Of a DNA stretch of 64,000 nucleotides, positions 29,811 to 33,625 are shown in pieces. The notes beneath the pieces were generated by a model. It was not told where the DNA came from. It saw only the letters and a program-made list of their open reading frames with translations, and did no database searches. Source of the stretch: a bacterium. GTDB lineage: Bacteria > Armatimonadota > Fimbriimonadia > Fimbriimonadales > Fimbriimonadaceae. The stretch covers positions 2,108,001 to 2,172,000 of the forward strand of contig JAIXUN010000002.1 in assembly GCA_027483535.1 (NCBI GenBank), given 5' to 3'. The position numbers and the translations under genes were made by a program. The number at the start of each line of letters is the position of its first letter. Position 1 is the first letter of the stretch.

Positions 29811-30140
29811 ATGCCTGTTTTTGAGTTCCGTTGCTTAACCTGTCACGCCAAGTTCTCGACCCTGGTCGGGATGACTCAAGACGCTTCCTCGGCGGTCGAG
29901 TGTCCTAAATGCAAAGGCGTTGAGACCCAAAAACTGGTCAGCCGTTTTCAGCGCGGACGGTCGGAAGATGATCGTTTGGATGAGATGGCGGATCGTTTGG
30001 AGTTGTATGGCGATCCCGACTCGCCCACGGAAATGCGTCGAATGGTAAAGGAACTCGGAAAGGCAACGGACAACGACGTGAGTGCGGATATGGAGTCGCT
30101 GTTTGAGTCCGATATGGAATCGGACATCGAGTCGGAGTGA
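29811..30140 (+). CDS. FmdB-family zinc-ribbon protein
   Basis: The 109-residue protein opens with the FmdB zinc ribbon (MPVFEFRCLTCHAKFSTLV, C8/C11 and C31/C34), a putative regulator fold of unknown target. The rest is charged, with a striking acidic C-terminus of repeated DMES/ESD units. ATG at 29811 is the family start; a longer frame reaching to 29367 runs through the divergent rng promoter and looks non-coding. It borders the AT-rich accessory insert that begins about 30150. Confidence 0.85.
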   Translation: MPVFEFRCLTCHAKFSTLVGMTQDASSAVECPKCKGVETQKLVSRFQRGRSEDDRLDEMADRLELYGDPDSPTEMRRMVKELGKATDNDVSADMESLFESDMESDIESE

Positions 30141-30207
30141 CAATTTCCTCGTTGGGTCTCAATGGAACAAGTTTTTAAACACTTTTTCACTTCAATCGGA
30201 TCTTTTC

Positions 30208-30564
30208 GTGCTAGCATACACACAGGGCGTTTTGTACTCAACGTTTCTCGGTAATATTGCAATTTTCACAAGCACCGTAAAGGTGCTTGCACAAGGACCA
30301 ATCTCACCAGCCCCAGTACTCCCATCCTGCTGCGCTGGCTGTATTAATTACGAGTTGCATGATAGAAATACATACGTGAAAGACGAAACTTGTCCAATGG
30401 AAAGATACACGTACGGAGACCGCAGAACGACCTACAAGTGTATACGGGCGGCTTGCCCAAATGACAAGCACTACTGGCGGACCGTGGTAACCGGCACTCA
30501 CGAGTGTACAAGTGATAAGGTGAGTGACTATGCGCGTCCAACTGGAGCAACATGTGTCCCCTAA
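30208..30564 (+). CDS. Small Cys-rich secreted-looking protein
   Basis: The frame encodes about 118 residues from GTG 30208, or 110 from TTG 30232 (AGGGCG upstream). The N-terminal 28 residues are hydrophobic like a signal peptide. The mature part has eight cysteines (SCCAGC, TCPM, YKC, AAC, HEC, ATC), suggesting four disulfides in an exported mini-domain. I know no such family. It overlaps the pseudopilin gene by 13 bp, so they are co-translated. The region is AT-richer than its flanks. Confidence 0.5.
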   Translation: MLAYTQGVLYSTFLGNIAIFTSTVKVLAQGPISPAPVLPSCCAGCINYELHDRNTYVKDETCPMERYTYGDRRTTYKCIRAACPNDKHYWRTVVTGTHECTSDKVSDYARPTGATCVP

Positions 30565-31220
30565 CTTCGCGCAATCGAGGCGCTAGCTTAGTAGAAGTTT
30601 TGGTCGTGATAACGATTATTGGGATCGTAAGCGCGATTGCGTTCAGTGCCCTCAACACCGCGAAGAGGACGGCTCAAAGCTCGTCTCATATGAGTGCCCT
30701 ACGTCAACTCAGTATGGCAGTAGTTCTTTACGGAGAAGATCACGCTGTAGAAGGCTCTCGTTTGAAATTCTTGGCAAGCGCCGAGACTCTCTCAAAAAAC
30801 GCGGCACTCAGCAAGTCTGGAATTTTTGCATTTGTAGGTGACAAGTACTCACAAGGATGGGGAAACTTCACTCGGGGGTCCGTCACCTTTACAGGTGAAG
30901 TGCCTTACATCTATAGTCCGTTAGGATTTGGCGATTTCGTCACCGAAGCTTTTGTTTTGTCTTCACCGAAGCGATACGGAGGCTGCCTTGAACACCCGTT
31001 TGCCCTCTTTGCTTATCCAGCAGCCGAGGTGAAGAAGTTTGGTGAGATGTACGACGTGAGCAAGCCTGCAAGCTCACGGCCGATCCTTAGAGCAAGCGCT
31101 GATGGTTCGGTAAGCCGAAACTACGTTCAGAAGACGACCGAACCTGGCGCGCATCCATTCGAAGTTTTCGGCGATTTGAATGGAGAGTGCGCAAAGGTTC
31201 GAGACATAGGACCAATATAA
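30552..31220 (+). CDS. Type IV pilin / pseudopilin-like protein, copy 1
   Basis: The 222-residue protein has a prepilin leader: basic MCPLTSRNRG, cleavage after G10, then ASLVEVLVVITIIGIVSAIA with Glu at +5. The globular part contains GDKYSQGWGNFTRG, then IYSPLGFGDF, and near the end ILRASADGSVSR, all shared with the protein at 31874. Prepilin peptidase would process it for assembly in the envelope; no secretin, ATPase or peptidase gene is here. GGAG lies before the ATG. Its stop overlaps the next start by 1 bp (TAATG). Confidence 0.85.
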   Translation: MCPLTSRNRGASLVEVLVVITIIGIVSAIAFSALNTAKRTAQSSSHMSALRQLSMAVVLYGEDHAVEGSRLKFLASAETLSKNAALSKSGIFAFVGDKYSQGWGNFTRGSVTFTGEVPYIYSPLGFGDFVTEAFVLSSPKRYGGCLEHPFALFAYPAAEVKKFGEMYDVSKPASSRPILRASADGSVSRNYVQKTTEPGAHPFEVFGDLNGECAKVRDIGPI

Positions 31221-31654
31221 TGTTCAATTCAATAAGTCTTAAAGAGCTAGGTCTTTTCGTTTTGGGCGCTTTACTCGCGCTCGTCTGCTATCAACAAATC
31301 ACGATGCCCGGGGCAAACTTAGCCACTTGGATGGCAGCCCTGCTGAATATCTCCGTTTCGATAGTTATAGCCTTTCTCGTAGGGCGGAAAGCCAGTCGCC
31401 TAAGTCTAGTTGTCTTTACAGCGACGTTCTTCCTAGTAGAAGCCATCGGCTACATACCGGCAATGGCCAGGTCTAACAATTTTAGATGGACCGTGGGTTT
31501 GACAATAACCTTAACTGCTGAGATTCTCATTTCACTTTTCGGAATGGGTTCAGTAGTGCTCTATCGAGTCTTAAAGGAGAGAAAGCCCAGCGGACCCAAG
31601 AATCCGACAAAAGTCACAACTGGAAGCAATTTCAAGAAGATTCACAGGCTTTAG
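31220..31654 (+). CDS. Four-helix membrane protein, cassette copy 1
   Basis: The 144-residue protein has four hydrophobic segments (about 8-26, 36-54, 61-80, 93-118) and a basic C-terminal tail. It shares a pattern with the protein at 32546: ATWMAALLNISVS versus ATWLTAFLNLTIS, then F-A-T-F-V-GYxPA, and T-T-AE-L-S-G. ATG at 31220 overlaps the pseudopilin stop. The pairing with a pseudopilin in both copies suggests a functional partner, for example a membrane anchor. Family unknown. Confidence 0.7.
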   Translation: MFNSISLKELGLFVLGALLALVCYQQITMPGANLATWMAALLNISVSIVIAFLVGRKASRLSLVVFTATFFLVEAIGYIPAMARSNNFRWTVGLTITLTAEILISLFGMGSVVLYRVLKERKPSGPKNPTKVTTGSNFKKIHRL

Positions 31655-31679
31655 GAGACGCTGAGTGATCACAGAACGA

Positions 31680-31744
31680 GTGTATAGTTTTTAGTGCCAA
31701 GAAGATCGAACAAGCCACTAGAAAAACTGAACGTGGTGTCTTAA
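31680..31744 (+). pseudogene. Remnant of the thymidine kinase 5' end (left repeat)
   Basis: This stretch repeats the upstream region and first 15 codons of tdk at 33002-33063, with about 52 of 62 aligned positions identical by my count. From GTG 31694 it reads VPRRSNKPLEKLNVVS then TAA, against VRKRSNKPLGKLTVVC in tdk. It is a truncated copy, and together with the intact tdk start it brackets the second pseudopilin cassette like the ends of an inserted element. Confidence 0.75.
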
Positions 31745-31873
31745 TGAATCCCTATGTTTCAAAGACGACTCGAACCTCGACCAATTGACCAATGTGCGAT
31801 GGCAAACGAGCCAGGTCAAGAAATGCCTTTCCAACATCACGCAGTTGGTCTTCCAAGGCATTCCGTCAAAGTT

Positions 31874-32521
31874 ATGGCGCACCGAGCGTTCACGCTCATT
31901 GAAGTGATAACGGTTACGGCCATTGTTGGTATCGTTGCCGGAATTCTTGCTATCGCCCTCATCCAAGCAAGGGATAGGGCGGCTTCAACTTCACATGTGT
32001 CAGCCATGCGGCAAATGGTCACTGCGACCATTCTTTACGGAGAGGCAAACAATTTTCCCCAAGATTATTTAAAGTTTGCCTCCTCTGGAGAATTACTCGC
32101 ACTCAACAAACAACTGCTGTCATCAAATCTGCTTGCTTTTCGCCAAGATCAAACGCCCGATGGGTGGGGCAACGGTGTTCGAGAAGAGCACACATACACC
32201 GGACGTCTCCCTTTTACCTACAGTCCATTTGGCTTAGGGGACCTTACGACGATCGAATTTGTGCGTTCTAATCATCGATACTCAAAATGCATCCAGACTG
32301 ATCTCGCGCTGTTCATATTCCCGACAAATACCAGTAAGAGCTGGTTCAAGATTCTCGACCCGAAGAGCCCCCCATCGGTTAGAACCATACTTCGTGCGCG
32401 CACAGACGGCTCGGTCGCTCGCGCTGTGATCTTCGGAAGAGCACGGACGTTCATACACCCTTACGAGGCGTTTGGGACGTTGGATGACGACTGTTCCGCG
32501 ATACTAAGTGTCGATGAATAG
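31874..32521 (+). CDS. Type IV pilin / pseudopilin-like protein, copy 2
   Basis: The 215-residue protein from ATG 31874 has MAHRA, then FTLIEVITVTAIVGIVAGI with Glu at +5; the residue before the cleavage site is Ala instead of the usual Gly. The body parallels the copy at 30552 (TPDGWGNGVREE, TYSPFGLGDL, TILRARTDGSVARA). An in-frame ATG at 31754 would give a 40-residue longer leader, which is unlikely. It is followed after 24 bp by the second membrane protein. Confidence 0.82.
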   Translation: MAHRAFTLIEVITVTAIVGIVAGILAIALIQARDRAASTSHVSAMRQMVTATILYGEANNFPQDYLKFASSGELLALNKQLLSSNLLAFRQDQTPDGWGNGVREEHTYTGRLPFTYSPFGLGDLTTIEFVRSNHRYSKCIQTDLALFIFPTNTSKSWFKILDPKSPPSVRTILRARTDGSVARAVIFGRARTFIHPYEAFGTLDDDCSAILSVDE

Positions 32522-32545
32522 AGCAAAAACAAAGCCACTGGAAAT

Positions 32546-32977
32546 ATGATGCAAAAACTAACACCGACAGAGATAGCCGCCTTTGCAGTATCCGTTTTGC
32601 TGGCGACTGTTATCCACTATCGATTGGTATACATGGGCGATACAGCAACTTGGCTGACTGCTTTCCTAAACTTAACCATTTCCACTTTTGTTGCTACGAT
32701 CGTCGCGTACCGCCTGCCAAAGCACGGGCTCACTCTGTTTTCAGCAACCTTTCTTTTCGTTCAACTGTGCGGATATGTTCCAGCGATTCTTTCCTCGAAG
32801 AGCTCATCTTGGATAGGCGGACTTGTACTCACGTTCACGGCGGAGCTCTTAACAGCGTTGTCTGGAACAGTTGCAGTCTTGCTGATGCGATGGATTTCTG
32901 CACATCGTAGCCCATCCGGTTCCCGAAGAAAGAGAGAACCTCGAGGCGCACACGATAGAAACGTGCACGATCTCTAA
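32546..32977 (+). CDS. Four-helix membrane protein, cassette copy 2
   Basis: The 143-residue protein is a diverged paralogue of the one at 31220, with the same four membrane segments and a basic tail (SGSRRKREPRGAHDR). Conserved landmarks are ATWLTAFLNLTIS, FSATFLFVQLCGYVPA and TFTAELLTALSG. It follows the second pseudopilin, so gene order is kept in both cassettes. The function is unknown. Confidence 0.7.
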   Translation: MMQKLTPTEIAAFAVSVLLATVIHYRLVYMGDTATWLTAFLNLTISTFVATIVAYRLPKHGLTLFSATFLFVQLCGYVPAILSSKSSSWIGGLVLTFTAELLTALSGTVAVLLMRWISAHRSPSGSRRKREPRGAHDRNVHDL

Positions 32978-33001
32978 CCTCGAACTTCCAACGGGCTACT
33001 G

Positions 33002-33063
33002 GTGTAAAGTTTTTTGGTGCGAAAACGATCGAACAAGCCGCTAGGAAAACTGACCGTGGTGTG
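33002..33063 (+). repeat. Right copy of the tdk-start direct repeat
   Basis: This covers 15 bp before and the first 15 codons of the intact tdk gene and is repeated at 31680-31741. Direct repeats at a gene's 5' end flanking about 1.26 kb of foreign-looking DNA resemble attachment sites of elements that replace the start of the gene they enter. No integrase is present. Confidence 0.7.
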
Positions 33064-33625
33064 CGGCAGCATGTACGCGGGTAAGAGCGAAGAGTTGATT
33101 CGACTCGCTCGCCGAGCCCTCTACGCCAAGAAGCCCGTGCAGGTCTTCAAACCCGCCATAGACGATCGCTATCACCAAAGCATGGTGGTGAGCCACCTTG
33201 GTTCGCAACACGAGGCGGTTCCAGTGCGAACTGTTGCCGAGTTAAAGACTCTGGTGAAAGCTGACACCGAAGTGGTGCTGATTGAGGAGGTCCAGTTCTT
33301 TGACGACTCCATCATCGACTTCCTGGTCCAACTGGCCGATCAAGGCAAGGATGTCGTTTGCGCCGGACTCGACCAAGACTTTCGCAGACAACCATTTGGT
33401 CCAATGGGCAAGCTCCTTTGCGCCGCCGACGAGGTCGTAAAGCTCCGCGCGATCTGCATGGAGTGCGGCAACCCCGCCAGCCACACCTACCGAATGGTGG
33501 ACGGCAAACCCGCCCACTGGGACGACCCGATCGTCCTCATCGGTGCCACCGAAAGCTACCAAGCGCGTTGTCGAAACTGCTTCGAGATTCGGGGCGATTC
33601 AGCCCGGCGCAAGAAGCGCACCTGA
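33017..33625 (+). CDS. tdk: Thymidine kinase
   Basis: This roughly 202-residue type II thymidine kinase phosphorylates thymidine in the salvage pathway. It has the P-loop GSMYAGKS, the catalytic IEEVQFFDD region, the lid QDFRRQPFGPM and two zinc pairs (CMECGN and CRNCF). The start is GTG 33017 or the adjacent TTG 33014; no clear ribosome site is seen. The 5' end (KRSNKPLGKL) is duplicated at 31694, next to the pilin cassettes. It converges on pyrD, with only 9 bp between stops. Confidence 0.95.
   Translation: MRKRSNKPLGKLTVVCGSMYAGKSEELIRLARRALYAKKPVQVFKPAIDDRYHQSMVVSHLGSQHEAVPVRTVAELKTLVKADTEVVLIEEVQFFDDSIIDFLVQLADQGKDVVCAGLDQDFRRQPFGPMGKLLCAADEVVKLRAICMECGNPASHTYRMVDGKPAHWDDPIVLIGATESYQARCRNCFEIRGDSARRKKRT

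Follow-up and report, generated by a model that had tools for sequence, protein, structure and literature searches.

Why does AT-rich DNA carrying two diverged pairs of pilin-like and small membrane-protein genes lie between fmdB and tdk, and what might the encoded proteins do together? We addressed this question in the window, i.e., the whole 64,000-nucleotide stretch of DNA that was analyzed, which comes from a bacterium that has received little study, and by searches of related genomes. The results point to an undescribed, fast-evolving cell-surface module consisting of a pilin-like protein, a membrane protein, and usually a Cys-rich protein.

The insert between fmdB and tdk

The AT-rich insert separates fmdB from tdk, leaving 2.9 kb between the two genes in the window (Table 1). 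fmdB and tdk abut or overlap in 21 of the 29 related tdk loci, as counted from their coordinates, and comparison of the insert DNA with 60 relatives gave two short chance matches and nothing more. G+C computed along the region is 0.46-0.51 in the insert vs 0.56-0.60 outside, in agreement with the lower G+C that the original prediction had assigned to it. Its description as an accessory insert also holds, on the basis of the position between fmdB and tdk, the composition, and the absence at that place in relatives. A mobile element with terminal repeats or a tRNA/att site was rejected, since no tRNA was found and, besides a copy of the tdk 5' end, no further convincing repeats were detected. 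In four same-genus relatives whose tdk is highly similar, this gene is located apart from fmdB (L016, L018, L020, and L021 in genomes G011, G018, G001, and G015, respectively), and in two of these loci a small predicted membrane ORF is immediately upstream of tdk.

Table 1. Features of the insert and its flanks (window positions)
Feature	Position	Strand	Remarks
fmdB-type zinc-ribbon protein gene	29811..30140	+	left flank, intact; basis: sequence
Cys-rich protein (8 Cys), probably exported	30208..30564	+	13-nt overlap with pilin 1
Pilin-like protein 1	30552..31220	+	prepilin N-terminus, DGSV-type C-terminal domain
Membrane protein 1 (144 aa, four-helix)	31220..31654	+	start overlaps pilin 1 stop (TAATG)
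Fossil tdk 5' end (VPRRSNKPLEKLNVVS, then stop) plus ~14 nt preceding the start codon	31680..31739	+	52/61 columns identical to 33002-33062
Pilin-like protein 2	31874..32521	+	prepilin N-terminus
Membrane protein 2 (143 aa, four-helix)	32546..32977	+	
Right copy of 61-nt repeat	33002..33062	+	upstream end and start of functional tdk
tdk, thymidine kinase	33017..33625	+	right flank, intact

The two neighboring pairs (30552-31654 and 31874-32977) were recovered with every ORF in its predicted place, and so were the landmarks said to be shared by the pilin-like proteins (YSP-GxGD and ILRAxxDGSVxR) and by the membrane proteins (ATWxxAxLN and GYxPA). Both pilin-like proteins have the prepilin motif, a Glu at +5, and the hydrophobic helix of pseudopilins, with leader/cleavage sites G/ASLVE and A/FTLIE (slash, cleavage); both score above cut-off with TIGR02532 and PF07963 (PF07963, 8.8e-7 for pilin 1 and 5.9e-5 for pilin 2), and they are 40% identical to each other. 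The structure model of the pilin is poor (pLDDT 37), and in a search of solved structures, solved pilins match the pilin family over the N-terminal part only.

Each membrane protein has four hydrophobic segments and one cysteine (0-3 in those of other loci), the two are 34% identical, and the AlphaFold model of membrane protein 1 shows four helices (pLDDT 65). No relevant or convincing family match was obtained in Pfam and NCBIfam, the DUF6790 and TMEM18 Pfam matches of membrane protein 1 being below cut-off, and Foldseek with the membrane protein model returned nothing at E below 0.7. A membrane-protein profile searched against 291 phylum genomes, GTDB contigs, and viral contigs gave nothing credible outside its own genome, and neither did the single proteins against phages and plasmids; weak matches at L004 and L093 were judged as chance. 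A match to a known pilus or secretion component, which would have spoken against the original prediction, was not found.

The 8-Cys exported protein predicted to overlap the first pair is also present as an ORF. It is without a clear ATG and its start is uncertain, with either GTG 30208 or TTG 30232 giving a signal-peptide-like N-terminus as read from the sequence. For the whole set, no known family or fold was matched beyond the prepilin N-terminus of the pilins.

Pseudopilins of the genome and the gene set in other genomes

With pilin 1 as the query, 60 pseudopilin N-termini, mostly of orphans, were detected in the genome (3.77 Mb), in line with Fimbriimonas ginsengisoli, in which 79 PulG-like genes were reported (PMC4072686). 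There is one prepilin peptidase (PF01478, one match) and there are several GspF/PilC genes (PF00482, twelve matched stretches) in the genome, and none of either kind is encoded within the window. The original prediction was thus correct that assembly genes are not nearby; this part is ordinary, since most pseudopilins of this genome are orphans far from assembly genes. There is nothing unusual in a lone pilin gene here, whereas its pairing with a membrane gene is not ordinary: among the 57 other pseudopilins read, a small multi-helix membrane gene directly adjoins two (L052 and L084). In both of these short pseudopilins the DGSV motif is lacking, and the gene overlaps (by 4 and 17 nt) a small four-helix membrane gene located upstream; they probably represent a sister type of this pilin-membrane arrangement. 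Two further short pseudopilins of the genome (193-200 aa; L073, C1:318808-322981, and L070, C1:1194303-1198488) are preceded by genes for proteins with thioredoxin-like CxxC stretches; both have similar-looking anchored proteins of ~200 aa behind the pseudopilin, and one has an overlapping 8-Cys exported protein downstream. Another candidate, L006 (G050), was judged an ordinary orphan pseudopilin.

The C-terminal profile of the pilins, used alone, recovered six genes outside this genome, distributed over four genomes of the family (G026, G056, G043, and G004). A two-sequence profile matched G026 (E 0.002; hhalign of the whole pilin against G026, N-terminus included, gave 98% probability), and a three-sequence profile then matched G056 (9.7e-14) and two loci of G043 (0.002 and 0.05), with a match to the same-genus G004 that is weak by itself (E 0.08). 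Leave-one-out profiles recover every pilin C-terminal domain. Both window pilins were found by a profile trained without either of them, at 11.7 and 25.6 bits, compared with 9.2 and 11.0 for the best of 500 shuffles and 1.2 for the best of the 57 other pseudopilins. Judged by these profiles, the C-terminal domains of the pilins constitute a family of their own.

Next to the gene of this pilin type there is consistently a gene for a small membrane protein, in most cases with four helices, and usually also a Cys-rich ORF. A small multi-helix membrane gene is found beside all six outside genes vs 2 of the 57 other pseudopilins (Fisher P 4e-7), the background being drawn from one genome and the pilins having been found independently of their neighbors, with the exception of the second tandem gene of G043, which was found via its neighbor and is not independent. 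A Cys-rich ORF with 8 to 15 Cys adjoins the pilin in 5/6 (G026, G056, and G043); the cassettes without one are cassette 2 of the window and that of G004. In G026, G056, and G043 the genes are arranged as Cys-membrane-pilin, and in G004 as pilin-membrane; most of them overlap by a few bases. One G043 locus (L130, 7392-10689) holds two complete sets in tandem, Cys-membrane-pilin followed by Cys-pilin-membrane. The conserved pairing that had been taken as a sign of an uncharacterized envelope system is thereby found in a stronger form, with four genomes having the pilin and the membrane gene and usually the Cys-rich ORF. We found no description of this set in the literature, which is no proof of absence; the genome searches covered one genome per species, strain-level alleles being outside their reach.

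The three proteins are conserved to very different degrees. Between G026 and G056, the pilin is 42% identical, the Cys-rich protein 43%, and the membrane protein 23% (z 1.5). Across loci, the membrane proteins can hardly be aligned (z mostly 0 to 3; 2-3 per 1000 shuffles in pooled tests); they keep size and position, mostly topology (three to five scored hydrophobic segments outside the window, with three in G004 and five in one of G043), and almost no sequence, and possibly they are not related to each other and occupy the same position. By leave-one-out profiles, a family is formed by the Cys-rich proteins of G026, G056, G043a, and G043b1, and neither the window protein nor that of G043b2 was recovered. 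In a pooled alignment against the Cys-rich proteins of other loci, the window protein beats 2995 of 3000 shuffles, suggesting a weak but non-random similarity (5/3000 shuffles). No match to the Cys-rich family was found among solved structures.

A fossil tdk start and the history of the two cassettes

The two pairs are separated by a fossil of the tdk start, 60 nt long, 85% identical to the real one, and ended by a stop codon. Of the six substitutions in its coding part, second positions account for four and first and third positions for one each, a pattern that looks like that of a dead, neutrally changing copy. This differs from the pairs themselves, in which third positions are saturated while first and second positions are conserved: between pair 1 and pair 2, third-position identities are 0.28 and 0.26, close to random, and second-position identities are 0.57 and 0.61, indicating that both proteins have been under long purifying selection. 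By these substitution levels, the fossil arose long after the pairs had diverged, and the second pair therefore probably arrived separately from the first. A simple tandem duplication of the cassette together with the tdk start would give all parts an equal age and was rejected, because the fossil is 85% identical and neutral-looking, in contrast to cassettes with saturated third positions, and because the regions to the left of pilin 2 and of pilin 1 show no similarity to each other. We infer that the second cassette came later and brought with it the tdk start of a relative; one way to achieve this would be homologous recombination within tdk at one end combined with illegitimate joining at the opposite end. 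In an alternative history, the fossil may have been converted by tdk through gene conversion.

Immediately right of the fossil, on the minus strand of 31740-31873, there are nested inverted repeats (AATGCCTT/AAGGCATT), and this stretch may mark the joining point. The minus-strand fold between the cassettes is weak (z -2.16); an RNA element was rejected at this place in view of the weak fold and the lack of an Rfam match.

Possible role and comparison with known systems

Tentatively, and at somewhat less than an even chance, we favor that the insert consists of two divergent cassettes belonging to a pilin-accessory module that moves horizontally and feeds a genome-wide type IV pilus/T2SS machine. 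Both pilins would be cleaved by the single prepilin peptidase encoded elsewhere in the genome and would be taken, as accessory or tip subunits, into one of its existing type IV pilus/type II secretion machines. At their side, the membrane protein may be a pilin-specific stabilizer or loading partner at the inner membrane, by analogy with the TfpY/FimB proposal, and the exported Cys-rich protein, where present, could be an optional partner or cargo of the pilin subunit. The second cassette would have brought its own tdk start, leaving the old one as the fossil. It is possible, if rather unlikely, that this is instead an undescribed pilin-dependent system, in which a specialized pseudopilin exports or displays its own Cys-rich protein across the envelope and the rapidly diversifying four-helix protein provides specificity or self-protection, the cassettes being swapped between strains at chromosomal sites that change.

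The fast divergence of the membrane proteins also bears on antagonism or kin recognition, an unlikely role in which the Cys-rich protein would be a small effector, the four-helix protein its membrane immunity, and the pilin a carrier to or through the secretion machine. Membrane proteins that keep position and mostly topology while diverging far faster than their neighbors (23% vs 42-43% between G026 and G056) would be consistent with it, as would diverged cassettes in tandem with permuted gene order and a second cassette that arrived separately beside a fossil flank. However, cassette 2 and G004 are without the Cys-rich protein, making the supposed toxin the optional part, and none of the toxin, immunity, and defence models searched matches. 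We equally doubt an ordinary expansion, by which orphan pseudopilins, of which this phylum has many, came to lie by chance beside unrelated small membrane genes in hypervariable spots. About 60 pseudopilins here and 79 in Fimbriimonas ginsengisoli (PMC4072686), together with membrane proteins that are not alignable across loci, are what one may expect of it, but chance does not easily account for a membrane gene at 6/6 pilin-domain matches vs 2/57 (P 4e-7), for the overlap of the genes in most sets, or for a third, Cys-rich gene that recurs with its own family (G026, G056, G043a, and G043b1). As to a disulfide-linked surface assembly, with the four-helix protein as a DsbB/VKOR-like redox partner of the Cys-rich protein, we consider it highly improbable: the four helices, the Cys-rich exported partner, and the thioredoxin-like CxxC genes preceding two other short pseudopilins (L070 and L073) agree with it, whereas the membrane proteins, with 0 to 3 Cys and one each in the window, have no conserved redox Cys pair and match no DsbB or VKOR model. 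The lack of paired cysteines largely refutes this redox role.

Bacteria of this group have dozens of orphan pseudopilins. One subset of them now has a defined domain, a recurring membrane neighbor, and a recurring Cys-rich neighbor, a defined three-gene unit by which the role of orphan pseudopilins becomes testable. It is unusual, and needs explaining, that the membrane proteins are nearly unrecognizable where the pilin and Cys-rich proteins are conserved.

Compared with the orphan pseudopilins of Armatimonadota/Fimbriimonas (PMC4072686), which have the same prepilin N-terminus and occur as many scattered copies far from assembly genes, the window type is shorter (190-225 aa), has its own C-terminal domain with LRxxxDGSVxR, and comes with linked membrane and Cys-rich genes. 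Its DG(S/H) motif lies at a similar C-terminal place to that of pseudopilins of the H-X9-DG type, whereas the remaining C-terminal domain has no detectable similarity to the 57 other pseudopilins of the genome. A pilin gene likewise adjoins a small multi-helix membrane gene in TfpX/TfpY/TfpZ of Pseudomonas and FimB of Dichelobacter (PMC11841053), the Pseudomonas pilin-accessory cassettes likewise bear diverse pilin types, and their TfpY-like proteins were proposed to aid the entry of pilins into the pilus (PMC11841053). The window membrane genes share with TfpY/TfpZ/FimB the position beside a pilin gene, as adjacency alone; their products do not belong to these families, given the different helix number and domain and the lack of any model match. 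The window proteins have four helices and a short C-terminal tail, as against three helices and a periplasmic C-terminal domain in TfpY-like proteins. TfpY-like genes, moreover, follow the major pilin after a terminator, in contrast to the overlapping genes, the variable gene order, and the third, Cys-rich gene of the set described here.
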